From positions 13,008,983 to 13,072,982 of the forward strand of contig NC_058337.1 of NCBI RefSeq assembly GCF_905475395.1: DNA of 64,000 nucleotides, read 5' to 3'. The notes beneath the pieces are model-generated. The model saw only the letters and a program-made list of their open reading frames with translations. It had not been told where the DNA came from and made no database searches. This document shows positions 5,972 through 58,392 of the stretch, piece by piece (within the stretch, counting starts at the first letter, position 1; each line of letters starts with the position of its first letter). Source of the DNA: Chrysoperla carnea. Taxonomy: Eukaryota; Arthropoda; Insecta; Neuroptera; Chrysopidae. The position numbers were made by a program, and so were the translations under genes.

Positions 5972-7147
5972 CTAGCTATTACTATGAGTACGTTTATGTG
6001 AAACTAAATAACCTTGCTGAGCAAATGTTTTATAACAAATATCACAGGAAAATGTTTTTTCTACATTATGAATTCGTATATGTGTAACTAATTTGCGTTG
6101 ATCACTAAATGTTTTTTTACAAATATCACATGAAAATGGTTTTTCTTCGCTGTGAATACGTTGATGTATAGCTAAAGAACCACGCTGAGTAAATTTTTTA
6201 TCACAAATGTCACATGAATATGGTCTCTCTCCACTGTGAATCCGTTTATGTCTTTTTATATCACTTTGATGAGTAAATGTTTTATTACAAATGTCACATG
6301 AAAATGGTTTTTCTCCACTATGAGTACGTTTATGTACAACTAAATTATGTTTATAAGTAAATATTTTATAACAAATATCACATGCAAATTGTGTTTCTCC
6401 ACTATGAATACGTTTATGTGTAACAAAATGATGTTGCTGAGAAAATTTTTTATTACAAATATCGCATGAAAATGGTTTCTCTCCACTGTGAATCCGTTCA
6501 TGTCTAACTAAACTGTGTTGATAAGTAAATGTTCTATTACAAATATTACATGAAAATCCAACTTTCTTTACAACATTGCCATCAAATGTTTCATTTTTAA
6601 TAATCAGTTCTGTATGTAATTCTTTTTCAAGTTCAATATTTTCATCATTATTTGTGTCCGAATGTTTAACATTTTCATGAACAGGTTCATGTTTAACACT
6701 TACAACACTATCACTATCAATATCATGGCTGTCTTCTTCTTCTTGTATTTCATTTTTAATTGGATCAACTTCCATTCTAATATTTTCATCAAATGTTTCA
6801 TTTTTAAAAATCTGTTCTGTATGTAATTCTTCTTTAACTTTAATATTTTCATAATTAATTGTGTAAAATTGTTTATCATTTTCATAAATTGATTCTTTAA
6901 GTATTTCTTTTTCCATGAAATCATTACTGCCATCATCTGGTATTTCACTCTTAATTTGCCCAACTTCCATTGTAACATTGTCATCCAATGGTTCAGTTTT
7001 AATAAATATTTCTGTAAAAATCGTATTTTTTGAAGTAGTTGCAGTGTTTGCTGTATTAAAAAATCGCGGCACAACTCCTTTCTTTAAAATTTTCTGAGCA
7101 TTAGGCACCGTCTTTACATAAAAATAGTTTTCTAAGTCTTCTTCTAA
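5972..7147 (-). CDS. THAP-zinc-finger gene, exon 2
   Basis: Starts right after TTGCAG with LEEDLENY, the sequence that usually continues this THAP subtype. It carries the acidic linker and the seven fingers. Confidence 0.85.
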   Translation of the reverse strand, partial: LEEDLENYFYVKTVPNAQKILKKGVVPRFFNTANTATTSKNTIFTEIFIKTEPLDDNVTMEVGQIKSEIPDDGSNDFMEKEILKESIYENDKQFYTINYENIKVKEELHTEQIFKNETFDENIRMEVDPIKNEIQEEEDSHDIDSDSVVSVKHEPVHENVKHSDTNNDENIELEKELHTELIIKNETFDGNVVKKVGFSCNICNRTFTYQHSLVRHERIHSGEKPFSCDICNKKFSQQHHFVTHKRIHSGETQFACDICYKIFTYKHNLVVHKRTHSGEKPFSCDICNKTFTHQSDIKRHKRIHSGERPYSCDICDKKFTQRGSLAIHQRIHSEEKPFSCDICKKTFSDQRKLVTHIRIHNVEKTFSCDICYKTFAQQGYLVSHKRTHSNS

Positions 7148-7447
7148 CTGCAATAAAAACAAAATATATTAAAAATGGCTAATAATTCTTTCTCCAATGT
7201 TATGAATTTATTTATATATGTATACACTTACATTAAAATGATCTTCGCAACAATAAGAAACTGTTTGCAGACGCTTATCAGGACAATTAGCAGCAATACA
7301 CCATTGTTTTCTCACCGCATCATTTTTGGGAACGAAAATAAAATGTTTTTCCGGATTCGTATAAGTAGTGCTGCGACACGAAGGTACAAAACAAAATTTG
7401 TTTTCGTGATCTGGTGAAGTATCTACTTTAATATTGTTAGAATCCAT
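5972..7447 (-). CDS. THAP domain / seven C2H2 zinc-finger protein, two exons
   Basis: Predicted nuclear DNA-binding regulator of 463 aa, joined as 7447..7232 and 7147..5972. The start is the ATG at 7447; the reading frame extends upstream only through a non-ATG codon. The 84-bp phase-0 intron has a clean GTAAGT donor and a TTGCAG acceptor, and it splits a THAP zinc domain. That domain has C19 and C24, W49, C67 and H70, and closes with VVPRFF near residue 97-102, in place of the usual AVPTIF-like ending. Residues about 105-265 are an acidic linker in which a unit built on KxETFDxN and MEVxxIKxEI repeats about three times. Residues about 270-463 are seven consecutive C2H2 fingers joined by HSGEKP-type linkers; all fingers keep both Cys and both His. 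THAP plus C2H2 arrays form large, fast-turnover families in insects. The target genes are unknown. A decayed relative lies at 50990-52363. Confidence 0.85.
7232..7447 (-). CDS. THAP-zinc-finger gene, exon 1
   Basis: Codes residues 1-72, holding the four zinc ligands of the THAP domain. It ends in codon AAT directly before GTAAGT (phase 0). Confidence 0.8.
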
Positions 7448-8177
7448 TTGTGCCCTCTTATTAATCTTCACGAAGGTAAAAGTTCAGTTTAGGCACTTTT
7501 CTTAAAAATCATCCTAGAACATCAGGAAAAAAAATTTCAAGCGTTTTTTACGTAGATTACAAATCCGTTGGCGGAAATACCGAAAAACTTACAGTTTTTC
7601 TTTAATTCAGGAAAATATGCTCAATTTCCTTGGTCAATAATTTCAAGCGTAAAAATAAATAAACGTATTAAGTTAATTAAAAATACGTCGTTATTTACCT
7701 TATTTATTATAAAATATGTTAAAATGTATAAAAATATATTCAAGAAACTAATGTTTTTAAATATTTAAGTATTAAGTAGGTCTTGAAATATAGAAATATG
7801 GCGAATACAGAGAATATATCGGTAAAACAGAAGCGAAAGTCAATGCTAATTTTTATCGCATGCCATTGAATGCCATCTCTGAATGTTCAGGTCAACTAAA
7901 TTAGTAATATCGACTATATAGGTCTCTTTACTACTTTATATTATAAGGTTCTTACCTTGAATAATAAGGTTATTGTCTTGCATAAAAATTTTATTTATTC
8001 CACATTAGAAAACTTATAATATTTAATTAATTTTGGAAACTTATTTATAAAATTCAATTATAATAATTAAGTTGTAAGTAATTTTTAAAATTGAATTTTT
8101 TAGATAATTTTTCAAAGTTATTTAAAGATTATAAGTTTACCCATGAATCCGTGTCTAAATATTTCATAGATAAATAT
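7448..8177. other. intergenic, presumptive upstream region of the zinc-finger gene
   Basis: AT-rich, without a recognisable coding sequence. It probably includes the promoter of the minus-strand gene, but no specific element can be named. Confidence 0.3.
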
Positions 8178-16831: not shown

Positions 16832-19800
16832 CTGAAAAATTCACAAAATAAGCTTAAAATATAAAAATTTACCTCACGCATACACACACATAAATTATTT
16901 AAAAATAATTAATATTTGCTTTTATTATAATAATGTTGTGTTTTTCAATTGAGATTTTAGAGCCATAAATCCATAATGTCACAAATATCAACAATCATCG
17001 TTGCTAAAACTGTGTTTATACCAAGTGTATGAAATATATCAAGGTATATTAAGTTTAGTCCCAAGTTTGTAACGCTTGAAAATATTGATGCTACCAACAA
17101 AATTTTGGTACAGGTGTTCATAAAACCATGTAATTAGTCCGTCTGTCCGTTTGAATTTTAACACGATAACTCAAAAACAAAAAGAGATATCAAGGAGAAA
17201 TTTTTATAGCGTGCTTAGGACGTAAAAAGTAAGGTTGAGTTCGTAAATGAGCAACATAGGTCAATGTCTTGGGTCCGTATGACTTATCTTGTAAATCGTT
17301 AGATAGAATAAGATAATATAATCGTTAGATAGAAAGTTTAAATGTAAAAATTTTCCTTATAAAAAAATAAACAACTTCTGTTTGAAACATTTTTTCGTAA
17401 ACATCATTGTTACATGTGAGTGGCTATCTAAGAGTGGATATGTTTCTTTATTTACATGACTTTAAAAAACAAACGAATTGGTCATCAACACCTGTCTATA
17501 CATGGTATTTCAACAATTAATTCAGTCAATTGTTTTCACTTGTTTATTTACAAAACTTTGTGCGTCTGGCCAAGTAAATCATTTTTATCGAATTCATTTA
17601 AGAAAAAATATTTCTTTTTTGCCCCAATATTGTATATATTTTTATCAATATTGCATATACCAAATTTTTTTACCGCCGTCGAAGATATTTTGTCTAAGGA
17701 TGTTAAGTAACGGGATCCATTTCATTCTGATAATACAGATTTTCTTATACTTTAATGACTTAATTGGTGTTGTATACTCAAAATTTTAAATAACAAAAAT
17801 TGTTCTGATTCATTTCTGGGCAAAAATTTGCATACAGTTTCTGTAAACTAAACGATTTTTGAAAAAAACGTTACTTTTTTAATAAGTTTCAATTTTTTAT
17901 TTATTTAAACTGTTCTTCTATATTTTACCACTAATAAATTAGACGCAGCTATAATTGAACCTGTAGGTCGAATTTAATGCTCGCGTTATATGCCTTTTTA
18001 AGCTAATAATTTTTTCGAGTTTCGAGAATATATCAAATTAAAAAAATACCTTATATAGATACAGATAAAATTAAAATTATTAAATAATATTTACCCATAG
18101 GAACAGCTGGTTTAATAAATCGCTCACTTGTGCGGCGTACTGATGGCGTAGGAGGACTACACTGTAAGCTTCCGGGTAAAACGGCTGGAGCAACAACAGG
18201 TGCAGGAGTTAATGGAAGTCCACCTGGTACAGATTGACCACATAATTGGCATCTACTGGTTAATGATTCGCGGCTAACTGGTGTCATTAAATTCATGCCA
18301 GGACTTAATGGTCTTGAAACGCTTGGCGATGGATGCGGACTTGATAATGTCCTTTGCCGAACACCGCCTAGTACTTGTTCATTATAATGACGTTCTTCTT
18401 CCATTTCTAAGCTACTTTCACTTTCAGAAAGTTGTCGGCATAAAGCTTCTCGTCTTTCGACCTAAAGATTTCAAAAATCATTTTTTGTATAAAATATATA
18501 ATTTTTCATTTATATTTTGATCAGTGCTAAGCCTAGATAAAATTTTCCGAAATAAATTTTTATAATTTCCCATTCGAAATATCTAGAGCGTAGATCTTTT
18601 TAATATCATAAAAAATTTAAGGCGAGATTCTTTTCATAAAAAAAGAGAAAAAAAGTTAATATAAACCAAAGGATTTTTGTTTTCGAGATATACACAATGG
18701 TACGGTTTCGAACCTAAAAGTAAAAGAATAATAAAAAATTTATTTAAAAAAAAAAAAAAAAACCTTTACTATCATGTTTACCAATTTAATTCGAAACTTT
18801 ATCATCATATTCCGCGAAAACGGAACGTCTTTGACCATAGGTTTACATGAACATTTTTATTTATTGTTAGACAAGTAATTACGCCTGAGCAATATTAATG
18901 GGAAACCCTGTATATCAAAGTAAATTTTTCATAGTGAAATGTGGACTTTTTTTAACTTCTATTCTCGTTTTTGCAAAGACGATAAATACTTGTTATTGTA
19001 ATCAGGGTATATTGTATTTTTCTAAGTCAATACAAAGAAAAGTGACCTTACACATCAAGGAACAGTATACAAGGTAGATATATATTATTCATTTTAATAT
19101 ATTTTGGCCAATAATTCGTTTCGAAACTAACCAATCAAAAAATAACCATGAGATATCATGTTCTGACATCAGATTGGACCTAGTTCTCCGAGTTGCTTTA
19201 ATAGTCAAATTAGATTCTACAAAGTAAGAGACAGAATAATACTCTAAGTGAGGAAGAAGTTGATCCTTATTAAAAAACTAACATTTTTTCGAAAATCGTT
19301 AGCTTTCGGTAGAAATACGACTTAAAAAAATGCCATTATTGCATTTAATCAAAAGAAAACACGCTAACTACAGAAAATACTTCAGCCAAAAGTTGTCAAG
19401 GGCAATAGAGGACATTCGTCAGTGTCTATGCCTTTGATCTGAAATTCTAGTTTCAAGGTCATTTTACTTTGATCTTCAAATGGTATAGAAAATTTAACTG
19501 GACTTAAAAGTTATTAACACAAGCGAATGAACTTCATATAAATAATAACTTTTGTTAAAAAATTTTTTCTAAAGCTAGCATATTGTTTTTTGATTAAATG
19601 CAATAATGACATATTTTTAAGTCAAATTTACTCCGCAAGATAACGATTTGCGAAAAAATGTTAGTTTTTTAATGAGGATAGACTTTCTAATTTAAAGTGT
19701 TATTCCATCTCTTACCTTTTAGAAACTAAATTAATTATTAAATCAATTCGGAAAACTAGGTAAAATCTGATGTTAGAACATGATATCCCCCATCAAACTC

Positions 19801-26283: not shown

Positions 26284-27377
26284 CTAATTAAAATAAATAA
26301 ATTTTTTAAGTTTCAACAAAATTTCACTCATCAACAAGATTTTGTATTATACAAAAAAAAATATAATAATAATAATAAACATGTTTATTGGATAAAAACA
26401 ATTTTATAAAGTCAAATAAAGTAATTATTTTTCGTTTGTAAGATTAGTTATGCAAAATTTCAAATCTAATTTTACTAATTATGATGATATAAATTCGTTG
26501 TTTTAACAACTCCGGCCATTTATGCCATGCTGACACATTTTCAAATTAATCAAAATGTAAATTGAATTTGTAATGAAATGATCAAAATGTTTGTAAAATT
26601 AATTATTAACTGATTGCATTGAAATATTTACCGCTGAAAATATATTCTACTTGTCTTATATAAATAGTAACTTCAGTTTTATGACTTTTAAAAGCGTCAG
26701 TACCAAAATTTTGACATTCGGGGATGATCGCCATGAAAACTCTTGAATTCTTGTATATGACACCATGGCACCATCTATTGCAATTTTTTAAAAACGAGGT
26801 CAGTGACCTACTAATCTACAAAAATATTATTTGAAAAATATTTTTCAAATTTTGTTTTTTACTTTATGAAATTATAAAATAATTTAAAGAATTTAATCTT
26901 TAAGTTAATTTTTTTTATTCCTTAGCTAAGAATGTTAATTAGAGAGTATTAATATAATTAAGACGTTCGAGTTATATTCTTATAATTGTTCGCATAATCA
27001 ATAATTAGTAAAAATTGTAATTTTCTGAAATTTTGAAATATTATCATAACTGATTTAATAAAATCTTACATGGACTTTGTTTGCAAAAAGGATTTTTTTA
27101 AAATTTTTTTAATTTAAGGTCGCTTTTTAACAACTAGGTCAAAACTATTATTTTTGAGCAAAATATGCATTCTCACTAAGATTCAAAAGAGTGTTTGTAC
27201 ATTACCAATAGAAATTGAACAAATGTTCTTTATCCAATTTCTTTGATTAGTCTTAATTATTAGTCCACAGTTTGCGCACTTTTCGGATACAAGAATGCAA
27301 TGTATGTAATTGTATCTAGAAAGTTTTTAAAAATGTTCCAAAAAAAAAAATTGAAAGTTATAAACAATTTATTTAAA

Positions 27378-27926
27378 AAACAAGTGAAAACAAAAATTGA
27401 CTAAGTTAATTGTTGAAATACCATGCATAGACAGTGTTGATTACTATATCACATTATACATACATACATGTCACACATACATAACTGATATTTCCAATAT
27501 AATACATACTATACAATTTACGCTTAATTTGCGCCCTCGCGGGTAAACAGTGATGTTTACGAAAAAATGTTTCAAAGAAAAGTTGGTTTTTTTATTAGGA
27601 ATATTTCGTACATTTAAACTTTTGTTCTATCTCTAACGGTTTACAAGATGGGTCCTACGGACCCAAGACCCAATTGACCTATGTTGCTCATTTACGAACT
27701 CGACCTCACTTTTTCCGTCCTGAGTATGCTGTACAAATTTCAGCTAGATATCTTTTCATTTTTGAGTTATCGTGATGACAGACGGACGAACGGACAACCG
27801 GAAATGGACTAATTAGGCGATTTTATGAACACATAGACCAAAATTTTGTGTCAATCAATATTTTTAAGCGTTACAAACTTGGGACTAAACTTAGTATACC
27901 TTGCATATTACATATATGCATGGTAT
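27378..27926 (+). repeat. dispersed repeat family A, reference copy
   Basis: About 550 bp, non-coding. Landmarks in order: GTGAAAACAAA with ATTGACTAAGTTAATTG, ATACCATG, GCGCCCTCGCGGGTAAACAG, TTCTATCTCTAACGGTTTAC, TTGAGTTATCGTGATGACAG followed by GACGGA steps, TTTTTAAGCGTTACAAACTT, and a terminal CATGGTATA. The family recurs at 4043, 17019, 28012, 38350, 39370, 44918, 46517, 51717 and 56013, in both orientations. Confidence 0.75.
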
Positions 27927-28011
27927 AACGAGTGAAAACAAACAATTGACTGAGTTAATTATTGAAATATACTGTATAGAAAGTGTTGCATATCAGTATT
28001 TGCATTATTAT

Positions 28012-28160
28012 ACCATGTATATATGTAATATATATCAAGGTATACTAAGTTTAGTCCCAAGTTTGTAACACTTTAAAATATTGATGCTACGAACAAAATT
28101 TGGATATAGGTATTCATAAAATCACCTAATTATAATTAGGTGATTAGGTTAGGTGATTTT
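28012..28160 (-). repeat. dispersed repeat family A, truncated inverted copy
   Basis: Reverse complement of the last third of the 27378-27926 repeat. It faces it tail to tail and ends in a small palindrome around CACCTAATTATAATTAGGTG. Confidence 0.65.
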
Positions 28161-38000: not shown

Positions 38001-41000
38001 AGAAAAAGAGTCATATGTTTCAGAAATCGTAGCACTTGCAATAAGAGCAGACGTCTCATAATAAAACAAGTGTAACATTTTTCCAATAAAATTTCAGAAC
38101 GAATTACACAATTTTATTGCGTGATCAGATCGCCTTGTTATAGCATTTAAGCTAATAATTTTTCGATTGATGGGCTTATTAGCGAGTTGTTGAAAATATG
38201 ATTGTTTAAATACCCTGCATAAACAATTTTGAATGCCAGTGCTTGCATGATTTTTAATAAATTAGAGAAGTTTAAAAAACAAACACATTTATGACATACA
38301 CATTAGTTCTAAGGTATAAATTTAAAATATATATACATTTACATTCCCAAGTAATACATTCTACATAATGTTCTAACCTAATTTGCGCCCTCACGGTTAA
38401 GTAGTGTTTACGACAAAATGTTTCAGACAAAAGTTGTTTATTTTTTTTATTTTTATTTTATAATTTTAAACTTTTGTTCTATCTCTAACGGTTTACAAGA
38501 TGGGTCCTTAGGACCTTAGATCTGTATTTCTATGTTGCTCTTTTACAAACTCAAACTCACTTTTTACGCCCTGAGCACGTTATAAAAATCAGCTTGATAT
38601 TAGTTTTCGTTTTTGAGTAATTGTGTTCCCATTACAGTTTTGGTTATGTTCTCATACATAACCAAAATTTTGTTAGTAGCATCAATATTTTTAAGCTTTA
38701 AAAACTTGAGACTAAACTTAGTTAACCCTCATATATATTTCATATATACAGGGTATAAAAAATTTTTTTAATTGAACTTAATTTAAGTTCAGTTGAACTT
38801 ACATTAAGTGGAGTATTACTGATTTTTGAATATGACTTTTGGTCCATTACTGTGAAACTAAATCCTGATTTGCAACCTTCAGGATGCTGTGCTAACAAAA
38901 TGGTGGCTGAACAAGTGCGATTTTGTTGCACTTTTTGGGATTTACACTAATAATTCCTTAACCGTGCGGGTTTCCAAAATTGTTATCATTACCGTTTTCT
39001 AAGTCAAATAGTTTAATAGATATGGCTCTTAAAATATCAGAGTTTTTTCCAAAAGATGAAAACTTTAAGTTTTTACCAATTTTCATAAATTTTTCACGAA
39101 ATAACCAGTCATACAGAATTGTTATCGTAATGAAAGTTGAAGGAAATAATAGGATGTTGGCAGAAAACAGTATTAAGTAAGCAGAATAGAAATACAATTT
39201 TTTAAATCTTACTTTTTGATAATAATTATTGTTTTATATATTAATTTTATTGTTCTGTACCTTAAGATATTTAGGGCCTTGCTTTGCACTAAGATAAGTT
39301 TAGTTAAAATAAGCTTTTTTGTGCCATTATAGCTAAGAAAGTGTTGTAAAAATCTTTAAAAAATAATTGTAGTACATATAGTATACACTGGTATTATAAG
39401 TTTAATCTTAAGTTTGTAACGCTTGAATATACGGGTTCTAGAGATGAAATTTTGTTTAAGGATTTACTTACATGACAGGCATATCTATAATATCATCATC
39501 ACTATCATCCACACTAATTTTGATGTCAACAAATGTGGATTTACGTTTTAAAAATGGTATTACGTCACTAGGTGGTTGTAATTTCATAACGTTTAAATCT
39601 TTTGATTTTTGAACATTATCTAAATATTTTTTGCCAGTTTTGCTTAATTCAATTGTGTACGCGCGCATATATTTAGTTTTCTTTAAAAAGCTTTTTTCTT
39701 CGCATAATCGCCCTATAATTTTCCACCAATCTTCATTGTGTTGAGCACCAGATCCATACAAACTGTCTTTCAGTAATTTATCATTCGATAGATTTAATTT
39801 CAAACCTCTTAAGAATTTAATGTACATTCCCAAACCATATTTTCCTTTAAGCAGTTCGATTACTTCTAAGAGTGATTTACAATATTTTGTAAAATCGTAC
39901 AAACCATCATCGTCCAGATCTTGATATGAATTGTTTGTGGATCGTTGAGATTTTCTATAAAAAAAAAGACATTTATTTTTTGTAACGTTATTTTTATGGC
40001 ACAAGAAGCTCCAAGAGCCTTCACTTTAACATTAAACCAATGAATATAACAATTGAGTTGATTCTTTAAATAACCTGAACATGAATATCAATGAAAAAAA
40101 ATTATTATTGATAAAAAGTTCTGCATGACCTAGAACACAATATGAAATCATCAGATATCAAATTGAAGGCATAAAGAAAAGTGAAGTTGATTTTTGCAAA
40201 TCTTTGGAAGTACGAAAAATATGAACGTTTAAAATTCCTAATTAAACAAAGAGGAAGATATACTTTAGTGACGCCATTGTCCAATATCACCATAGAGATA
40301 CATAAAAACTTTTTTTGCTTAAAAGAGATGGGCAACAAGCTTTGAATACTTATAAATTTTTCGTTTTTTAATCAATTTTAATTTCAAGTCTAGTTTTACA
40401 GTTTTATGCATAATAAGTAAGACAAATTCGACATCAAGCAACTACCGTATTTGGGTATAACAGGATAAAGAAAATGGAATTCTGTATTTTTTGGCATTTT
40501 AGAGCGAGTTTTGAAAAATGACCTTTTTTTCGATGTGCTCTCGGTAACGAATCTCGCTAGCGAATTGGCATACAAACATTAATGTAAAATAAATAATAAT
40601 GTAATTAAAAAGTATATTAATGCTTTTGCCGTAATATGAAAGGAAAAAAAAGTTATTGAGGAAAAACTGGAGGAAGATGGAAAGTTTTGCAGTTTCTCCT
40701 CCCTCCCTTTTTCGCACAGGGTCCTGGAGGTCGAAAACTTGAGAAAAATTAATCGATCATCCCTGAACAACATCCCTAAGTTTCACTAGCTTTTGACCTT
40801 TTTCCACCTAACCCTACTTTTCAACTGTGGTAATTGCGCTCCTTTAAGAAATGAATTATAAAATACGAATTTCTATCTTTATCCACGGCGTTAAATTTAA
40901 TAACTTAAAAAAAAATTAGCATGAGCTTAGACTGGTATTTTGCCTCTGGATTTTTTAATTTTTTTCAATTTTCTTAAAAACGGGCCATACAACAATTGAA

Positions 41001-44000
41001 TATATATTTTTATACTCGAATCTGAGATAATAATATTATAAACAAGTGTTAATTTTTGATCCATCATATTTGTATGGTATTTCAAAACGAATTCTAGTAC
41101 TATCGTGATGCATGACCCAGAAATTAATTCCCAGGGTTTTTAATTCATTTCAGTCCGTATTTCTTACAGTTTCACTTATTACCACTTTCAGTTATGTGAA
41201 AGTGAAAACTAAATTTAAAATCACGCAGATGTAGGATATAGGAACTTATTAAATCATAAATATAGGATGAATTTGGCAGCCTTAAAAAGTAAATAACACT
41301 AGTTTAAAAAATAAGGCCATGTTAGGTGATTATTGCTGGTCTATTTTAAGATAAACAAGGGATAATAACTGGTATATTTTAAGTTAATACCTAACGAAAA
41401 AAAAATGGTACATACTTATTATAGTCCAGGAGCTGTCGATCTAAAAAGTTCCCTCATACCGTGCATATATTTTTTTTAAAGAAAATAGATAGTTTAAAAC
41501 TATAGGAATTCGAAACGGTAGGTTTGCGTGGTTTTGTAAAGCCGAAAAAATGTTTAAAAAAATTAATTATTAAAAAAATCGATAAATGTTTGTCTCTCAT
41601 GTTGTGAAATGGTTTGCCTAAAGTATATTCTACAGAAAATTTCATTATCTTTCAGAAAAAATTTACGCAAACCAATTTTTTTAGCCGGGAGAGTCAGGCA
41701 AGCCTTTTAAAGTGTGTGATGAGGGAGGAAATTTCTCCCTCATTACGTAACATGATTTTTTTATTTTTATTTTGTTCCTTGCAGTGTCTACTTAAAGATT
41801 ATCTTGGTTTGCGGGCTCAGAAACGGCCGGAAATGTCCAGCAAACCAGCTTAAAGTTCATCTACTCTGAACTCATTTTCAATAAATATAATAGATAAACA
41901 CATACAAACTTGTATAGACAATAAACACATTCAAACATGTATAGACACTTGTGGTATTTTTTCTATCCTCTGCATTTATAAACTGACATTATTTTTATTA
42001 AATTATTAAATCCATCCAAAATAAAAATTTCCTATTATTCCTTTAATTATATTTACCCTTTCATTATTTCAAATCGTAAAAACAGCAAGACGTCATATCC
42101 TATATGAAGTTCGTACTAAAGTATATCAAAAGAAAATATAGAAAAGTAATTTTATAAAATAAAAGTATTTAATAGAAAATAAAAAATAAAAATCACCATA
42201 AAACAATAGTAATTTTACAACGAAACATTTTTCTAGTTTATATTTATTGAAAATGAGTTCAGAGTAGATGAACTTTAAGCTGGTTTGCTGGACATTTCCG
42301 GCCGTTTCTGAGCCCGCAAACCAAGATAATCTTAAAGTAGACACTGCAAGGAACAAAATAAAAAAAAAAAATCATGTTACGTAATGAGGGAGAAATTTCC
42401 TCCCTCATCACACACTTTAAAAGGCTTGCCTGACTCTCCCGGCTAAAAAAATTGGTTTGCGTAAATTTTTTCTGAAAGATAATGAAATTTTCTGTAGAAT
42501 ATACTTTAGGCAAACCATTTCACAACATGAGAGACAAACATTTATCGATTTTTTTAATAATTAATTTTTTTAAACATTTTTTCGGCTTTACAAAACCACG
42601 CAAACCTACCGTTTCGAATTCCTATAGTTTTAAACTATCTATTTTCTTTAAAAAAAATATATGCACGTATGAGGGAACTTTTTAGATCGACAGCTCCTGG
42701 ACTATTAGTACAATTATCACAGCAAAAATCATTTTTAATATCAATTTCTTTCACTGGTTTACCAGTGAAATATGATAAAATAAATTTTCGACGGAAGGAT
42801 GAATTTGGCAGCCTTAAAAAGTAAATAACACTAGTTTAAAAAATAAGGCCATGTTAGGTGATTATTGCTGGTCTATTTTAAGATAAACAAGGGATAATAA
42901 CTGGTATATTTTAAGTTAATACCTAACGAAAAAAAAATGGTACATACTTATTAGTACAATTATCACAGCAAAAATCATTTTTAATATCAATTTCTTTCAC
43001 TGGTTTACCAGTGAAATATGATAAAATAAATTTTCGACGGCACTCAGTACTGTATAAAAACATTTTCATTTTTTGACCAAGTTCCTCTAGATGATTACCA
43101 GCGGATGAAGATTTCCTCAAAAAATCATGTATAACAAAATCTTGTTTTGAAAAAAATGTAACACATTTCGACGGTAATCCATCACGCCCAGCTCGGCCAA
43201 CCTAGAAGAAAAGCATTCTATTAAAAATAATTGTTCTATTTTAAAGGTATGTAATCTTAATCACTAAAATAATTTATATGCAAATTTTGGCACAAATTGG
43301 CAGAAATTTGGTATTGCTTATACAGGATTTTTTTTTTTTTTTTTTAAGTTGACATATGCTTGAAACTTGAAAAAAAGTTTTACCGATAAAAATGCTTCAA
43401 GCAAAAATGTTGGGTGTATAGGCCGCACTTCTTACACAGACATTAAACTTGACCTAGGTTTTTAGACTCAATGAAAAACTCGCTCTACTCCATAAATGAT
43501 AATAAATAGATTAACACTTTATATTAGAAAGTTGTTATTGATTAAATAGGTAACATTTTTTGTTCGAAACATTTTTCCGCAAACCGTATAGTTTAGGCAA
43601 TAACGGACTGAAAAGTTTTACCCAAAATTGGTTTGTTCGTATCAAAATTGCTATTTCGTATAATTATTTTTATGGAATTTAGGCACTCGTCAAAAAAATT
43701 TCCAATAAAAGAGGTTTGTTTTCTATAATGACCATTTTTGTTCAAATTAAATGAAGAAACGAACAAAAAGTTAGATTTTTGCAGTCAATTACTGCCTACT
43801 CTAAACTATTCCGTTTACATAAAAAAATATTTCAAAAAAAAATTTGTGCGTTTTTATAAAGAACTACTCTCTAATTTAGAGTGTTCGTCTAATGTTTGCC
43901 ATATATGAATCAGAGTGAGATTTTAATTGAACCTGAAGACGTAGATCGAATTCAATATCCGTATAAGATGAGTGCCTTTGAAACTAACATATTTCGTTTG

Positions 44001-47000
44001 AAGGATTTTTATCGATTAATTTGATTTTTCGAATTTCACGTATATGTTAGTTAAAAAAACCACCCTGATACTTTATTAAATTTTAGTTCGATGATTAAAG
44101 AGCATTTCAAATAGAGGATTTTAAATCCCGAAGTGTCAATTTTGCTTGGAAACCAAATATCTTGGTCCAAAAAGCTCATACGGGAATTTTTTTATAGCTC
44201 ATTTTCAAAAAAAAAAAAAAAACAAGCATTTCAGTGGTATTTGTTGTAAAATAATTTTTAAAATTTGGATACTCTTCTAAACTTTATATAAAATTTAAGG
44301 AAAACATTTCTCACTCTTACAAACCTCCGTGCAAAGCGACAAGGGGTGATAACAATTTTTGACCAATAGATGCCAAAATTAGAATGTGCGAGTTTACCTC
44401 TTGATAGTAGCTTTCGATATCTTTTGATGCACCATAATGCACAACCAGGCGTACATCAGGTTTGTCAATTCCCATTCCAAATGCAATAGTTGCAACAATT
44501 ATTTTGATTTCATCCTTTGAAAATTGTTCATGGACTTCCTTTCGTTTTTTCATTGGTATACCAGCATGGTATGTTTCACAACGTATTCCATTATTATTTA
44601 GAGTTAATGATACACTTTCAGCCTCTTTTTTGGTTAATGTATAAATAATCGTTGAACCATTGCCACATTCTTCTAAGTACGGTCGTAAAAGTTCTGCTAC
44701 GTCTCTATGACTTTTTGATAGTATTTCAAAATATAAATTTGGTCGGTCGAAACCAGTACAACGTAATTTTGGATTTCTAAAACAAATTTCATTTTATTTA
44801 CATTAGAAAGTTTAAACAAGAATCAATCTATTTAAAATCGAAAAATGATGACCGCTATTTATTTTTAATGGTTAAATGGAAAAATTTTGTAAGGTAGCTG
44901 AAATACAAAAAAACAAGTATTTTAACTGAAAACAAAAAATTGAGAGATTTAATTATTGAAATAGCCTGTATAAAAAGTGTTGAATATCAGTGCTTGCATT
45001 ATTTTTCGGTCGCCAATTGGTTTGGTTTTCAAAAATTTCGAAGCTATCTACAAATTTTCAATTGTCTATCTTTTATAGTTTTGGAAAAATGAACATCAGT
45101 TTTGTCCTAATTTGCGCCCTCATGGATAAACAGTGTTGTTAACGAAAAAATGTTGAATTCAAACAAAAGTTGTTTATTTTTTTATAAGGAACATGTTTTA
45201 CATTTAAACTTTTGTTCTATCTCTAACGGTTTACAATGATGAGTCCTACGAATCCAAGACCCAATTGCCCAAGGTATATTGCTCATTTACGAACTCAAAC
45301 TCACTTTTTACGTCTTGAGTACGCCATAAAAATTTCAGCTTGATATCTCTTTTCGTTTTTAAGTTATCGTGATGACGGTCGGACAGGCGGAAATGTACTA
45401 AGTGATTTTATGAACATCTATACCAAAATTTTGTTCATAGCATCAATATTTTTAAGCGTTACAAACTTGGGGCTAAAATTAGTATACTTTGATATATATT
45501 TCGTATTATCAGCGTAAATATTAAAATACATTAAAGTTGAGCTATTTTATGAACAAAAAATATGGTGACCAAAATTGGTCGTTAGCTCTTGGACTATATC
45601 TATAAGGCATTTTACTGTACTCTAGTACTAGTTCTTATTTGAATCGCTAATTAAAGTTTAAAGATAATACCTCATTTTCAATGCGTGGCATATATCTTTT
45701 TGCACTTGTTCTGTAGCTGTAGCTGTAACCGCCATCATTGGAACATCGGGTAATAATGATCGTAATTTCCCTAAACTTCTGTAAGATGATCGAAAATCAT
45801 GACCCCATTTGGATATACAATGTGCTTCATCAATTGCAATCAGTGTAAATTTAATAACATTTTTCATTTTATTAAACAGATATTCACCACCTTCGCCTGT
45901 ACAATATTCAGGCGTTAAATATATTAAGCGGTACTTATTTTGTAAAATTTCATCAATTACTAATGACGAATTTTTTTGAGCGGTTCCCAAAAAACACGAT
46001 GGTATTCCAGCTACCTAAAATTATAATATTGATAAGTATTACAAAATATTCCAATTGTCTAGTAAACAAGTTCAAATTGGTGAAATATAGAAATACTAAT
46101 CGTAAAAATACGTGTGATAGGTCGTTGGATTCAGAAATTTTGAAAAATGTGCAAGAAGCGTTTTTCAGCACGTAAATAATTGCAAAAGTAATAAACAACT
46201 AGATTGATACCCACCCGCTTCACTAGACTTAGTAAAAACCACCGCTTTAAAGGTTCCACCTCTTTTGCTCTCACTTATTCCTCTCTCTATAACACTCGAA
46301 GGGACTGTTTTACACAGCTAAAATATATGCACAGTTTTCGATTTTTTTAAGTGTAAAATAATAATAATTCATTGAGTATATCAGAAAAAATGGCCATGAA
46401 TGGTTTGACATTTACTATTTAAAATTTTCACAGATATCTTTAATGTATGGGTCAAACTAATGATTATAGATGGAGCAGTAAAAATGTCAGAATAAATTTA
46501 ATTTTTTAATTTCTATACCATGTATATATGAAATATACATAGTAAATTAAAATTAGTCCCAAGTTTGTAACGCTTAAAAATATTGATAATACGACAAAAA
46601 TTTTGGTTTAGGTATTCATAAAATCAACTAATTAGTACATTTCCGGTTTTCCGTCTGTCAACACGATAACTCTAAAACGAAAAGAGATATCAAGCTGAAA
46701 TTTTTATAGTGAGCTTAGGACGTAAAAAGTGAGGTTGAGTTCGTAAATGAGAAACATGGGTAAATTGAATCTTGGATCCGTAGAACCCATTTTGTAAGTC
46801 GTTAGAGATAGTAGAAAAGTTTAAATGTAAAAAATGTTCCTTATAAAAAAATAAACAACTCTTGTTTGAATTATTTGTTTGTAAACATCACTGTTTACTC
46901 ACGAGGGCACACATTAGATACAAATTTTATAGTATGTATTAATATGGGATTATCAGTTATGTATGTGTGACATGTATAGGTATATGTGTAATGGGATAGA

Positions 47001-48576
47001 ATAATCAACTCTGTCTATACATGGTATTTCAACAATTAACTCAGTCAATTTTTTTTTCACTTGTTTTTAATGTATATTCATAAATTATAGCTCATGTGTT
47101 ATTCTGATGTATGAGCTATATTGTTGTACAATTTCATTTAAATTAATTGGTTTTGCAAACCAACAAACAAACAAACATCCTTACTTTCACATTTAGAATA
47201 TATAGGGATTAAAAATAAAAAAAAGGTATTTCGTTTTTCGCCAACATTCCAAGCATAGTTCAAAATATGAGATTAATGGTTTTTTTTTCTATTTTAATGA
47301 TTTTTCAGCGCGATTGGTTATTTTAAACTTGTAAACGCGCTAAAGCGCGTAAATTTAAAGATCACACTTTCTGACTAAATTGAATTTTTTCTAAACTCTC
47401 ATACGAACAGTTTGCTTCTGGGCTCGTAAAAATCGGTGGTGTACTTTTAAATTCCGACCTCAAAAGTCTTATTTTCTCAACTAGTAATTTTGAAATTATA
47501 GTTATTCGTTATAAAATAATAAACAATTTGTGTTGAAAACATTTTCCATAAACCCAATAAATTCAATGAAAATCAAATGCAAACGCTTGGTTATATTATA
47601 TATATATAATTTATCAAGCAAAAGTAAAATTAAGTATCCGCTAATAGTTATGGATATTACGCGCAAGACATACGGTTTTGGCAGTTAAGAACCAGGTTTA
47701 CATTTGACAATTTTTATTTGTATATATGGTCCCGGATTTTAGCCAATTTTGTTTTCGTCGGAAATGTTGTATAGAAGGAGGGTGTTGATATTTTCATAGA
47801 GAAGATTTCGGTGAAATGAAATTATATAGGCTCAACCCATACTTGCTTACATAAGTTTCACTAACTTTGGTCTAATTCCAAAGAATTATGCTTCTGACCT
47901 TTATGTTCGTTTAAATTTTTACGGATGTGTCGAGTCAACATACTAATTAATCATTCCATTGCCTAGTCGGCTCTATGCGAACATTTATCTCAATTGTTCC
48001 CCTATTATAGCTCATAATTCCAAAAATATGTATAGACGGTTCTATATTTTGAATTTCGTGACTCGTTTACCCTTCACCATAAATATTGGTTGGTGTATCT
48101 CAAAACATAGCGAAGTACTCTTCTGTTATACGATCAGTTTTAATACTATTACTTACTTGTAAAGAAAGGACTTGATCTTCCATCAAAGAAATTAATGGTG
48201 ATATAACAAGGGTACAACCACCACTGTAAACTGACGGATATTGGAAACACAATGATTTTCCGGATCCAGTTGCCATAATAATACACTGATCACGTTTATT
48301 ATTTAATGCCGTATTTATAATATTCCATTGCATGGGTCGAAATTTCTGGTGGCCAAAACATTTGCTTAACACTTTTAAATACTTTTCAGGTGGTTCATAG
48401 AACGAATCATCCTGAGATCCTGTTTCATCTTGAGATGAAAAACTATTGTTGAGTATCTAAAGTAAAAAATAATTTTTAATATTTAATATATAAACATTTT
48501 CTTATAAACATGTAATTATGATAATTACCTCTTCTTCGCTATAATTTCCAAAATCTTCATCACTATCTGAATTCAT
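31435..48576 (-). CDS. WRN: WRN-type RecQ DNA helicase, ten exons, 1056 aa
   Basis: ATP-dependent 3'-5' DNA helicase for replication and repair structures in the nucleus. Exons: 48576..48529, 48456..48157, 46014..45671, 44776..44398, 43201..42948, 39954..39472, 37957..37629, 36658..36397, 34565..34420, 32060..31435; all GT-AG, total 3171 nt, one open frame. Seen in order: motif 0 FGHQKFRPMQ (50-59), Walker A ATGSGKS (78-84), DEAH (178-181) followed by CISKWGHDFR, AVTATAT (211-217), GFDRPNL, motif V with AFGMGIDKPDVR, motif VI VGRAGRDG (358-365), the zinc-binding region with CRRK (C411) and FCCDNC as in human WRN, an RQC winged helix (LRGLKLNLS, WWKIIGRL), an HRDC domain (exon 7) and the WRN-like C-terminal helical module (exons 8-10). 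The tail is acidic with a basic end (SRKPRRKY), a plausible nuclear signal. There is no exonuclease domain: the protein starts 16 residues before exon 2. Exon 5 is partly duplicated downstream. Confidence 0.93.
32150..32400 (+). repeat. dispersed repeat in helicase intron 9
   Basis: Similar to 46050-46200 (same orientation), sharing AAATTGGTGAAATAT and CGTAAAAATACGTG, and to 47210-47260, sharing GGTATTTCGTTTTTCGCCAA. Confidence 0.5.
33388..34281. mobile_element. 890-bp foldback element in helicase intron 9
   Basis: The left arm begins near GTATACGAACCCATAACAG and the right end carries the complement. Inner blocks (AAGTGAAAATGGCTGAAAAA, GACAATTTTTGTTAATAAAT, CAGATATCTTCTATCTGT) are mirrored through the element. 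A 19-base A run lies at about 33548-33566. It ends 139 bp from exon 9. Non-coding. Confidence 0.65.
34420..34565 (-). CDS. WRN: WRN-type helicase exon 9
   Basis: 146 nt. LAVSTLGFHLTSALMNGYPI matches WRN [20 protein letters not shown]. Phase 1 before GTAAGA. Confidence 0.88.
34820..35620 (+). pseudogene. non-LTR retrotransposon remnant in helicase intron 8
   Basis: RNase H-like and C-terminal sequence in shifting frames: SHAVFRSHEASRFQSR, TRAQLRRVVGLLKGHC, then RMFGSETLDPPILREIPMEK. A TTATTATTG-rich tail lies at 35560-35590. It is homologous to 22370-22830, has many frame breaks and is inactive. Confidence 0.65.
36397..36658 (-). CDS. WRN: WRN-type helicase exon 8
   Basis: 262 nt after TTTTACAG. 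Ends with SMVQTYKMFSSGKKLTQIAA, matching the WRN segment ITYSLFQEKKMPLKSIAES. Confidence 0.85.
37629..37957 (-). CDS. WRN: WRN-type helicase exon 7 (HRDC)
   Basis: 329 nt after TTTTTAG. A linker, then an HRDC fold: LFNELKEFRNQIAYEADCRP, VASDTALMEMVQLLP. Phase 1. Confidence 0.88.
38350..38757 (+). repeat. dispersed repeat family A, helicase intron 6
   Basis: Lacks the 5' end. Contains TTCTATCTCTAACGGTTTAC and the terminal CATATATACAGGGTATA. Confidence 0.65.
38760..39190. repeat. repeat family with second copy at 53590-54120
   Basis: Shares ACTGATTTTTGAATAT, CTGTGC...AAAATGGTGGC and AACCGTGCGGGTTTCCAAAA with 53590-54120. Non-coding. Confidence 0.55.
39370..39455 (-). repeat. dispersed repeat family A, short 3' fragment
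   Basis: Inverted piece containing the complement of AAGCGTTACAAACTTAAGA, 17 bp from the exon 6 donor. Confidence 0.45.
39472..39954 (-). CDS. WRN: WRN-type helicase exon 6 (RQC)
   Basis: 483 nt. Winged-helix RQC domain with LLEVIELLKGKYGLGMYIKF and WWKIIGRL. A Ser/Asp-rich end (SVDDSDDDIIDMP) precedes the donor AT|GTAAGT. Confidence 0.9.
41264..42794. repeat. second copy of a 245-bp tandem duplication, split by an insertion
   Basis: Without the inserted element (41422-42704 plus one TTA copy), this block is 245 bp and reads identical to 42796-43040, the block that holds the functional 3' part and donor of helicase exon 5. The exon-derived part here (about 42702-42794) should not be used, since the insertion falls at its donor site. 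Confidence 0.85.
41422..42704. mobile_element. 1283-bp foldback transposon, TTA target duplication
   Basis: Ends are TAGTCCAGGAGCTG and its exact complement, flanked by TTA at 41419-41421 and 42705-42707. The empty site is visible at 42941-42955 in the other copy of the duplication, which fixes the boundaries. The arms (about 41422-41888 and 42238-42704) are nearly identical, with only single-base differences, and enclose about 350 bp of unique AT-rich DNA. The same 50-residue frame appears in both arms in mirror image and is incidental. A three-base TTA duplication fits PIF/Harbinger elements, but the tip sequence is not one I recognise. Confidence 0.85.
42796..43040. repeat. 245-bp tandem duplication, intact copy
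   Basis: Contains the 3' 93 nt of exon 5, its donor and 150 bp of intron. The partner is 41264-42794. Confidence 0.85.
42948..43201 (-). CDS. WRN: WRN-type helicase exon 5 (motif VI and zinc region)
   Basis: 254 nt. Motif VI with the arginine finger, then the zinc-binding helices. The donor is AA|GTATGT at 42947. The distal 93 nt of the exon and its donor are copied at 41422-42794, where the copy is broken by an insertion. Confidence 0.88.
43320..43640 (+). repeat. repeat shared with 52600-52890, helicase intron 4
   Basis: Common landmarks: CGATAAAAATGCTTCAAGCA, TAATAAATAGATTAACACTTT and TTTTTCCGCAAACC. Non-coding. Confidence 0.6.
44085..44340 (+). repeat. repeat shared with 9440-9720, helicase intron 4
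   Basis: Common landmarks: GGATTTTAAATCC, ATTTTGCTTGGAAA and TTTTATAGCTCATTTTCA. It ends about 60 bp from the exon 4 donor. Confidence 0.55.
44398..44776 (-). CDS. WRN: WRN-type helicase exon 4
   Basis: 379 nt. Second RecA lobe: FDRPNLYFE, IIYTLTKKEAE, YHAGIPMKKR and motif V. Phase 0 donor at 44397. Confidence 0.92.
44918..45515 (+). repeat. dispersed repeat family A, helicase intron 3
   Basis: Near full-length diverged copy with GCGCCCTCATGGATAAACAG and TTTTTAAGCGTTACAAACTT. Confidence 0.65.
45671..46014 (-). CDS. WRN: WRN-type helicase exon 3
   Basis: Begins VAGIPSCFLGTA after ATTTTAG. Carries YLTPEY, the DEAH box, the aromatic-rich loop and AVTATAT. Ends in phase 2 before GTATTA. Confidence 0.92.
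46517..47072 (-). repeat. dispersed repeat family A, helicase intron 2
   Basis: Full-length inverted copy, from TATACCATG-like sequence to the complement of GTGAAAAAAAAATTGACTG. Confidence 0.7.
48157..48456 (-). CDS. WRN: WRN-type helicase exon 2
   Basis: 300 nt, phase 0 at both ends. Carries motif 0, Walker A and motif Ia (LVISPLISLMEDQV). Confidence 0.92.
48529..48576 (-). CDS. WRN: WRN-type helicase exon 1
   Basis: Sixteen codons (MNSDSDEDFGNYSEEE) with a GTAATT donor. An acidic start, with no exonuclease sequence before it. Confidence 0.75.
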
Positions 48577-50989: not shown

Positions 50990-52363
50990 TATTCTATTCA
51001 TGTTATTCATAAACATTTGTATACCAATGAGAAAAATATTAAAGTTGAAAAATAATTAAATACAGAATTTAATGGAAATAAAACAAACAGAATTAAGAAA
51101 AGAAATTAAACAGGAAAATATTACTACTATGAACTTGATACAAATACTGAACTTGAAAAACAACTACATATGGAATTCATTATTAAAGATGAGACATTTA
51201 TTTGATGAAAATGTTTTAGAATTGCAACAAATACCTACGAGTCTGAACGAACAATTATTTACATGTGATCATTGTAATAATACATTGACTTTAAAGGATA
51301 ATTTAAGTAAACATATACGGATTCATACCTACTGGTGAAAAAACCATTCTCATGTGAAATTTGTAATAAAACATTTATTCATAAACAAAATTTAATTGTG
51401 CATAAACGAATTTATACTGGAGAGAAACCTTTTACATGCGAAATTTGTGTTAAAATAATTACTCGGAAATCGTATTTAATTGAACATAAACAACCACATG
51501 TTATGTTGGAGCAAAATCTTATTCATATGCAGGTTGTCATAAAACATTTAATTTTAAACAGTGCAGAGTGTAATTCAATCTATTCATGTGAAACTTGTAG
51601 TAAAACATTTGGGGCCTAACATTTACTGGGCAAGGTTCTTTAGTTATACATAAAGGAAAACATTTTGGAAAAAAAATCTTTTACATGTGAAGTTTGTGAT
51701 ACAAAATTTAGTAGCAACAAGTGAAAACAAACAATTGACTAAGTTAATTGTTAAAATACCATGTATAGACAGTTTTGATGACGCAATCGTTTGTTTTTTA
51801 ACGTCACGTAAATAAAGAAAGATTTCTACACTTAAATAGCCACACACACATAACTGATATTCCCATATTAATACATACTACAAAATTTTCACCTAATTAG
51901 CGCCCTTGTGGGTAAACAGTGATGTTTACAAGAAAATGTTGCAAATAAAAGTTGTTTATTTTTTTATAAGGAACATTTTTTACATTTAAAGTTCTATCTC
52001 TAACGGTTTAGAAGATTGACCTATGGGTCAAGACACAATTGACCTATGTTGCTCATTTACGAACTCGACCTCACTTTTTACGTCTTAAGCACACTATAAA
52101 AATTTCAGCTTGATATCTCTTTTCGTTTTTGAGTTATCGTGATGACAGACGGACAGGCGATAGACGGACAGACGACAGACAGACATACGGAAATGGACTA
52201 ATTAGGTGATTCATACAAACGCATACTGGAGAAAAGACTTTTGATTCGGCATAAAAGAATTAATAGTGGAGAAAACCCATTTAAGTGTGAAATTTATAAT
52301 AAACATTTAGTCGGCAAGGTAATTTAATTACACATAAACGAACCCATGTTGGATAAACACCAT
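50990..52363 (+). pseudogene. C2H2 zinc-finger pseudogene, relative of the 6-kb gene
   Basis: Fragments in shifting frames follow the order of the gene at 5972-7447. First comes linker sequence (NIKVEK; DTNTELEKQLH and KDETF against DTNNDENIELEKELH and KNETF). Then come fingers: FTCDHCNNTLTLKDNLSKH, FSCEICNKTFIHKQNLIVHK, FTCEICVKIITRKSYLIEHK, then YSCETCSKTFG and FTCEVCDTKFSSN. A family A repeat interrupts at 51717-52208. The last fingers follow (HKRINSGENPFKCEI, TFSRQGNLITHKRTHVG) before a stop near 52363. Frameshifts occur near 51208, 51335, 51615 and 52300, and several zinc ligands are lost. No THAP exon was found upstream. Confidence 0.75.
51717..52208 (+). repeat. dispersed repeat family A inside the zinc-finger pseudogene
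   Basis: Starts GTGAAAACAAACAATTGACT directly after the finger segment FSSN and ends within the ATTAGGTGATT block, missing the last third of the family. Confidence 0.7.
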
Positions 52364-56012: not shown

Positions 56013-56366
56013 AAGGAACATTTTTTACATTACAACTTTTGTTCTATCTCTAACGGTTTAAAAGATGGGTCCTATGGACCCATAGGTCAAGACCCTATTG
56101 ACCTATGTTGCTCATTTACGAACTTTACCTCAATTTTTACATCCTGAGTACGCTGTAAAAATTTCAGCTTGATATCTTTTTTCATTTTTGAGTTATTGTG
56201 TTGGCAGACAGACGGACAGAGAAACGAAAATGGACTACCACCACTAACTAGGTGATTTAATAAACACCTATACCAAAATTTTGTTTAGAGCACCAATATT
56301 TTTAAGCGTTACAAACTTGGGACTAAACTTAGCATACCTTGCATATTACATATATGCATGGTATAA
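56013..56366 (+). repeat. dispersed repeat family A, 3' two-thirds
   Basis: Starts at GGAACATTTTTTACATTACA, includes TTCTATCTCTAACGGTTTAA and ends CATATATGCATGGTATA. It truncates the decayed ORF to its left. Confidence 0.7.
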
Positions 56367-58392
56367 AAATTAATATTTAAAAATAATCAGTTTACCATTT
56401 TAAATTTTATGAATTAAATTTTTATTATTTACATTGAATTTAATTTAGCTTATTATCAATCTACAAACACCAAATACAATCTTTATTATTAAATCAATTG
56501 AATTTCATTCATTCAATTCTTTATTTGCTCTTTGTTTATAGATTGTAGTAAATAGAGTAATAACCAATTTATCATATATTCAAAAAATTTTCGAAAAAAA
56601 CAAAAAAATTGCCTTTATTCTTAAATAACTAGAAAAATAATCAATTTACAAAAAAAAGTGTAGCGGAAAAAAATTTAGCTCATTTTACGCAGAATATTTT
56701 ACCTTGTAAACTTTTTTTTGCAATTTTATTATTTTTCGAGCTATTTAACGATGAAGACTTTTATCTTTTTATTTTTTTAAATTTTTGCATTTAAATTTCA
56801 ATCTTTCAAAAAGAAAGATTTTTAGATCTTTAAATTACATCTTTCAATCGATTTCCGTTGCCATTTTCAACAAATATTATTCCACTTTATTGTAGGTAAA
56901 TACCTAAGTTTGTTTACTTAGGTTTGTTCTTAGGCCTAAGCTTGCGTGTGATATAATAATCCGAGTATCTAGCACCTCTGTATATGATCTCAATCATCAC
57001 ATAGTGTGCAAGACATAACGAAAATCTAGCAGGTATGGCACGTATTGTACAGGAAACGGAAAAGTTCAATGAAAATTAAAATATAATTATTTGTTAATAT
57101 ATATTTAAATAAAATTACACTGTTTATGATTTCCGATACAAATATTAAAAATTTGTCGTTCGTAAATACGATGAAGAAAAATATTATTTCATAATTTCTC
57201 TTATCAAAACATAATTTCTCAATGAAAATACATTTATTTTTCTGATATTTATCCTCCATATATTTATAAAAAAAATGATTTCATACAAAAAATTTTCAGC
57301 AAACCTTTACGGTTTAAACCTCCATGTAACCACTTTTCGTAAATAGGCTTTGTTTCACTCAATCAGTTGCAATTCAAGGTGTTGCTTTTTATTAGAAAAC
57401 CCAATAAATTCATCTAAATCTTCATCTTCCAGTATTTCCATCGTTCAGCTTAGTTCATTTTTTTCTCGATATCAATTTCCGCCAGGTCATTTAGAAGACC
57501 TTGTATATACATCTAGAGAAGGCACATATTCCATCGTTTCTTCTTCCGCGTAGCATTTCTTGCCATTGATCCCGATAGTACAGTTTTCTGTGATAATTCG
57601 TTGAAATACAGACTAGGTTCTTCTTGTAATTCTCTTTATCCTACTGCTAACACTCGTGGGGCACAACTCACACAAGTATCAAGAGTTTTCTTCTCGTTTT
57701 TTTGTGGAAATGGAGCTCTCGGGTGAACGATTTTTAAACCTTAAATTTTCAAAATTCTATAAATGTTAAAACTCTACAGTTTCTGATTTTTCCATTTGAC
57801 AAGCAGGTCCTAAATACTGGGATACACCTTGTTTGTATAGAATTTAATGAATATAACACACTGACTAAAATTGTGAATTCACTATAAAATGCAAAAAGCT
57901 GCTAACGGATACTATTCTTTCGATTCCTACAATATAATTCGGGGCAACGTATTTTATTGAAGATCATATCTTAAAAAGGCGTTATTACTATAATATTATT
58001 GATATCTACAAATAGGGATATTTGAGTGTAATACTCGAAAACTAAATTTATTGTCTTCACGAACAACTTTACGCCCATATAGGATAGCCAAATACCACGA
58101 CGCCGCGCGATATAAGAGCCAAATACGACGCAAAAATATGAGATTAAATCTAATATATACAGGATTGGCCGTCTTAATCTATTATGGCTAATAGCTTGTT
58201 TTGTAGTTAACCAATCAAAAAATATTTTAAGCAAGTTGCAGTTGAGTTTTATGGGGGACATCATTTTTTGACATTAGGTTGGACTCTGTATGTATCTTCT
58301 TGCAATAATTTAAGTAATTATTAAAATTAACAACATTGTAGACTGTATTGAAAAACGGACCGTATTTGTCAAGTACTGAATGCAATTTTCTA
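56367..58392. other. gene-free AT-rich region
   Basis: No gene recognised. About 58150-58290 carries the same end as the foldback family at 19830-19885. A minus-strand patch at 57300-57700 looks faintly protein-like but is full of stops and matches nothing I recognise. Confidence 0.4.

Follow-up and report, generated by a model that had tools for sequence, protein, structure and literature searches.

Does the doubled end of exon 5 in this helicase gene, with a transposon filling one of the two copies, record real mutations or a join made during assembly? We examined the locus in a window of 64,000 nt (C1:13008983-13072982), which is the whole stretch of DNA analysed, and searched the genome to which it belongs (559 Mb in 337 contigs; probably that of an animal, to judge by this gene and its introns). 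Sequence alone does not settle which of the two it is. The reading that we prefer, at a probability of roughly 50%, is a real and recent 245-bp tandem duplication made by break repair, followed by insertion of the element into the spare copy; the odds attached to this and to all other readings are judgement and were not computed. The kinds of event involved are already known, and it is their arrangement that is informative.

The gene lies on the minus strand and, judged by similarity, is a WRN-type RecQ helicase. DEAD (in two frames), Helicase_C, RecQ_Zn_bind and RQC domains all scored above the Pfam cut-offs in minus-strand frames, and the best 13 of 31 PDB matches of the exon 5 product were to WRN (E 2.1e-10 to 3.3e-9), with BLM at 1.1e-3; these domains and matches bear out the first-pass annotation, which had recognised a DNA-repair helicase here. 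By Pfam, the first half of DEAD lies in an open frame with an upstream helicase exon (48100..48456), the second half in 45661..46014 and Helicase_C in 44320..44793, all on the minus strand and all given as frame limits, not exon limits. Exon 5 (43201..42948, minus strand, 254 nt) runs from the acceptor TTCTTCTAG to the donor GTATGT and encodes the RecQ zinc-binding region (CCDNC), as indicated by Pfam RecQ_Zn_bind (7.5e-8), the WRN matches and the splice frame; its number was taken over from the first-pass annotation, the exons mapped here being those from the helicase core onwards. Exon 6 (39468..39954, minus strand) starts at 39954 with an A directly after TTTTATAG and contains the RQC domain (Pfam 8.4e-10). 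The exon 5 donor leads into it in frame in a splice-frame check, and its extent is that of the open frame to its stop, so that further internal splicing is possible. In human WRN the protein also carries a 3'-5' exonuclease domain, whereas none of 15 genome-wide matches to the WRN exonuclease family (PF01612) fell inside the window; an exonuclease exon may lie beyond the window or be strongly diverged.

Other repeats are present in the window. An old dispersed family, in both orientations and 73-94% alike, has seven copies there (17015-17550, 27374-28132, 38343-38761, 45100-45538, 46494-47068, 51716-52159 and 56013-56373), the fourth and fifth of which sit between the helicase exon frames, and a diverged tandem array with a period of ~84 bp, 77-81% alike, occupies 5981-6557.

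Comparison of the window with itself defined the duplicated block. The intact, empty block (42796..43040, minus strand) comprises the last 93 nt of exon 5 and, from the donor GTATGT at 42947 onwards, the first 152 nt of intron 5. The filled copy is in two parts: an intron-side part of 158 nt (41264..41421, minus strand), which includes the copied donor (41415-41410) and a first TTA (41419-41421) and is 100% identical to 42796-42953, and an exon-side part beyond the element (42705..42794, minus strand), which starts with a second TTA (42705-42707) and is 100% identical to 42951-43040. Once the insertion is removed, the 245-bp blocks are 100% identical, with 0 differences in register; the copies differ in length by 1286, which equals the 1283-bp element (41422-42704) plus the 3-bp TTA. 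A single extra base, A at 42795, parts the copies, microhomology between the duplication breakpoints is 0 on both sides, and the 64,000 nt contain 0 N. Most of what the first-pass annotation had claimed about this anatomy was confirmed, namely identical 245-bp blocks, 93 coding nucleotides in duplicate (43040-42948), a 1283-bp insertion with TTA on each side, and an element beside the donor of the downstream copy, which we measured at 6 nt before that copied donor, TTA included. It had also held that the empty site makes the element boundaries exact, and here it erred: 42949-43040 and 42703-42794 are identical over 92 nt, and a prefix of 158 plus a suffix of 92 makes 250, leaving an ambiguity of 5 bp. 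What fixes the boundary is the match between the inverted ends, together with the 3-bp duplications seen at other copies.

Searched against the whole genome, the 245-bp block gave at least 19 matches, 3 of which were the window's own blocks. The 16 elsewhere were all confined to query positions 47-149 and to 94 bp or less, the best-scoring being 86% identical over 70 bp and one being 100% identical over 34 bp only; part of the intron side of the block is therefore a dispersed repeat. This stretch (42842-42944 in the window) resembles the 16 places at 78-100% over 34-94 bp. Among the matches listed there was no second copy of the locus, such as an unplaced haplotig, a point in favour of a real duplication.

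The inserted element (41422..42704, 1283 bp) has the ends TAGTCCAGG...CCTGGACTA and the target duplication TTA. Its left arm (41422..41898, plus strand) and right arm (42228..42704, minus strand) are inverted copies with 98.75% identity, aligned over 480 columns (41421-41898 against 42705-42228), and the longest reading frame wholly within it is 86 aa. With long inverted arms, many copies and a 3-bp target duplication, it is a foldback (long-TIR) DNA transposon, and the exact 3-bp duplication marks it as a normal insertion. At least 117 matches to the family were found genome-wide (40 of 62 candidates scored). We examined 32 copies, 20 of them 1.27-1.31 kb long and 12 longer (1.59 to 7.3 kb); L050 and L052, each a single arm, were left out of this count. 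An exact 3-bp target duplication was present in 30 of the 32, the exceptions being L043, without one, and L026, in which the last bases of one end were lost. The 30 duplications were TTA/TAA (19), TTT (4), TAT (2), ATA (2), and AAT, GTA and TTG (one each). The 3-bp duplication of PIF/Harbinger elements is restricted to TWA, and membership of that group was rejected because the duplications here are too varied, 11 of 30 being other than TTA/TAA.

The family is young as judged by an alignment of 19 complete copies of 1.27-1.29 kb in one orientation (L026 excluded), whose pairwise difference had a median of 0.93% (0.3-2.0%). The copy in the window differs from the column majority of the 19 by 5 substitutions, 2 of them private, and 1 gap column. 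With 0 differences in 245, divergence between the duplicated blocks is at most 1.2% at 95%, and the pairwise median suggests an element age in line with that figure. The duplication and insertion had at first been called very young; this stands as an upper bound only, set by the 1.2% and the 5 substitutions.

Longer members of the family carry coding sequence. The 2.9-kb copies contain a reading frame (L042:3131-4147) with relatives in open frames of 1378-1588 aa (11 of 122 listed matches, one of the 11 spanning a stop), and L066:251-4852 (G000:C3:8842300-8848800) is an open frame of 1533 aa whose product is akin to the element's protein. Autonomous PIF/Harbinger relatives encode a DDE transposase. 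Searches with the 2.9-kb-copy frame, the 1533-aa relative and a profile of a related part gave a best E of 0.019 in Pfam, not near any cut-off, and no match below E 0.26 in PDB; the sequence matches within the genome show a large family of proteins that has no name in the Pfam and PDB libraries. The 7.3-kb copy without a target duplication (L043:1746-9075; G000:C1:122312000-122321999) is flanked by inverted AAGTAA / TTACTT, and its inner 973-aa frame presumably belongs to a non-LTR reverse transcriptase, which it resembles in a motif. Two near-identical copies, oriented alike, are separated by 3 kb (L053:2151-3434 and 6486-7768, G000:C2); each has its own target duplication (AAT and TAA), so they are probably separate insertions.

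If the assembly is taken at face value, the gene may well be undamaged. A transcript would reach the intact block first, directly joined to the remainder of exon 5, and then the filled block inside intron 5, whose modelled length is 2993 nt against 1461 otherwise. The gene would be readable through the first donor, with normal splicing predicted there. In the filled block, six nucleotides (TAATAA, 41416-41421), three of which are target duplication, separate the element from the copied donor. An acceptor-like site (AAG/G) lies upstream of the copied exon end (42705-42812, minus strand). Without the element, this exon end could give a 111-nt in-frame pseudo-exon (108 nt plus 3 nt beyond the element); with it, the frame continues into element sequence and meets a stop 23 residues later. 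Use of this pseudo-exon at any time would be speculation.

We infer that the assembly is correct, as well as the repair route and the order of events, in the following way. A break would have had its ends extended and then end-joined, with one filler base and no microhomology, giving a duplication that spans the boundary of exon 5 and intron 5. The first copy on the transcript would have kept the whole of exon 5 and its donor, making the second copy spare intronic sequence. A young long-armed transposon with an A/T-rich 3-bp target duplication would then have inserted into the spare copied exon end, 6 nt before the donor, and the gene would have tolerated the insertion since it relies on the first copy, with no special mechanism needed. 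PMC8355091 traces short tandem duplications to breaks whose two overhangs undergo fill-in before they are joined, and perfect blocks with a 1-nt filler suggest the type of junction expected of this process. In helq-1 mutants of C. elegans, PMC8654963 reports tandem duplications ranging from ~100 bp to 10 kb, with junctions rich in microhomology; they are put down to ends that homologous repair had extended and that, when strand annealing failed, were end-joined instead. Tandem duplications from such failed repair are rare in wild-type nematodes. Both routes are compatible with a 245-bp unit and a filler of one base, and since microhomology is absent here, fill-in plus end joining (PMC8355091) is favoured over the helq-1-type route. 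Gap filling inside elements (PMC8277862) is a poor match, as the element in the window is uninterrupted. Against the duplication followed by insertion is the coincidence that it needs, because two uncommon events fall in the same 245 bp; moreover, a filled and an empty allele side by side are also what a haplotype join produces. Among the papers listed by literature searches, none was seen to describe precisely this arrangement.

Flanks and tandem pairs elsewhere served as controls. None of the 31 other copies had a near-identical direct repeat in its flanks (1.5 kb per side; 925 bp for the right flank of L043), and duplication of flanks as a habit of the family is not supported. Flank repeats of 80-90% identity occurred in 7 of the 31 (L010, L011, L017, L021, L022, L027 and L051); one of them, at 83.6% in L051, forms a tandem pair to the left of the element and ends 4 bp from it. 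A control for direct repeats within 6 kb, with a minimum of 60 bp and 95% identity, covered 281 kb, a small, non-random sample biased towards transposon flanks, in which the only pairs besides this locus and the two L053 copies were an array with a 165-bp period in L061 (95-96%) and one pair in L066. The latter (L066:5321-5618) is a perfect tandem pair with a 148-bp period and 100% identity, downstream of the 1533-aa frame; one such short perfect pair in 281 kb suggests that a real duplication is plausible at the locus under study.

An assembly artefact is quite possible, at somewhat under even odds. The animal would be heterozygous for the element in exon 5, and one contig, ending in the filled allele, would have been joined without merging to another that begins in the empty allele and overlaps it by 245 bp; a gap-filled join of overlapping contig ends is possible. 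Apart from the insertion the copies do not differ, which would suit alleles, the extra base at 42795 is explained by neither flank, and the youth of the family makes a segregating insertion plausible, although the artefact requires that insertion to segregate within a coding exon. False allele duplications on one scaffold are documented in the part of PMC9516828 that treats them, sometimes joined by incorrect gap filling, and with half the read depth; gapless cases are also named there, but most are separated by gaps, whereas the window holds none. Nor does any of the 31 further copies examined have a near-identical repeat in its flanks, which also weighs against a join. By simple arithmetic, zero SNPs in 245 bp would occur with a chance of 0.09 at 1% heterozygosity and 0.29 at 0.5%, and the identity counts against two alleles only where heterozygosity is high.

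A single repair event is unlikely. A break at the element site, for example by excision, in a filled/empty heterozygote would have been repaired from two templates and the extended ends joined: the left end would have copied the element and the next ~92 bp from a filled template, the right end would have gone 158 bp back on the empty homologue, and exon 5 would have been rescued through its own duplication. This accounts for the duplication, the filled/empty asymmetry and the filler base in one step, and tandem duplications of the kind seen in helq-1 mutants (PMC8654963) are in its favour. It needs two templates in one repair, the junctions in that source abound in microhomology whereas here it is 0, such duplications are there rare in the wild type, and none of the 31 other examined copies shows such an arrangement.

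If the duplication and later insertion are real, the locus is a clean snapshot of a spare exon-end copy that took an insertion in place of the gene proper, and it preserves the empty and the filled site as neighbours. If the join is an artefact, an annotator could be misled into reporting an exon duplication or a disrupted WRN gene in an animal that merely carries a segregating insertion. Were the single event true and such scars found repeatedly, a tandem pair of one filled and one empty copy could be read as the signature of repair at transposon sites.

FB and Galileo elements have target duplications of 8-9 bp and differ in this from the element in the window, with its 3 bp. Tetris (as portrayed in PMC4079207) and Galileo (as portrayed in PMC4168063) resemble it in their long inverted arms, short centre and many near-identical copies. 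The false heterotype duplications described in PMC9516828 likewise place a tandem pair of allele-like copies on a single scaffold; the present locus has no gap, the unit is only 245 bp and no allelic SNP separates the copies. The class defined in PMC8355091 lies under 100 bp, smaller than the unit here, and microhomology, frequent in the duplications that PMC8654963 describes, is absent from this locus, where one copy is also filled by an element. What those duplications (PMC8355091, PMC8654963) share with the present one is a short head-to-tail pair of perfect copies, with a near-blunt junction and one filler base.
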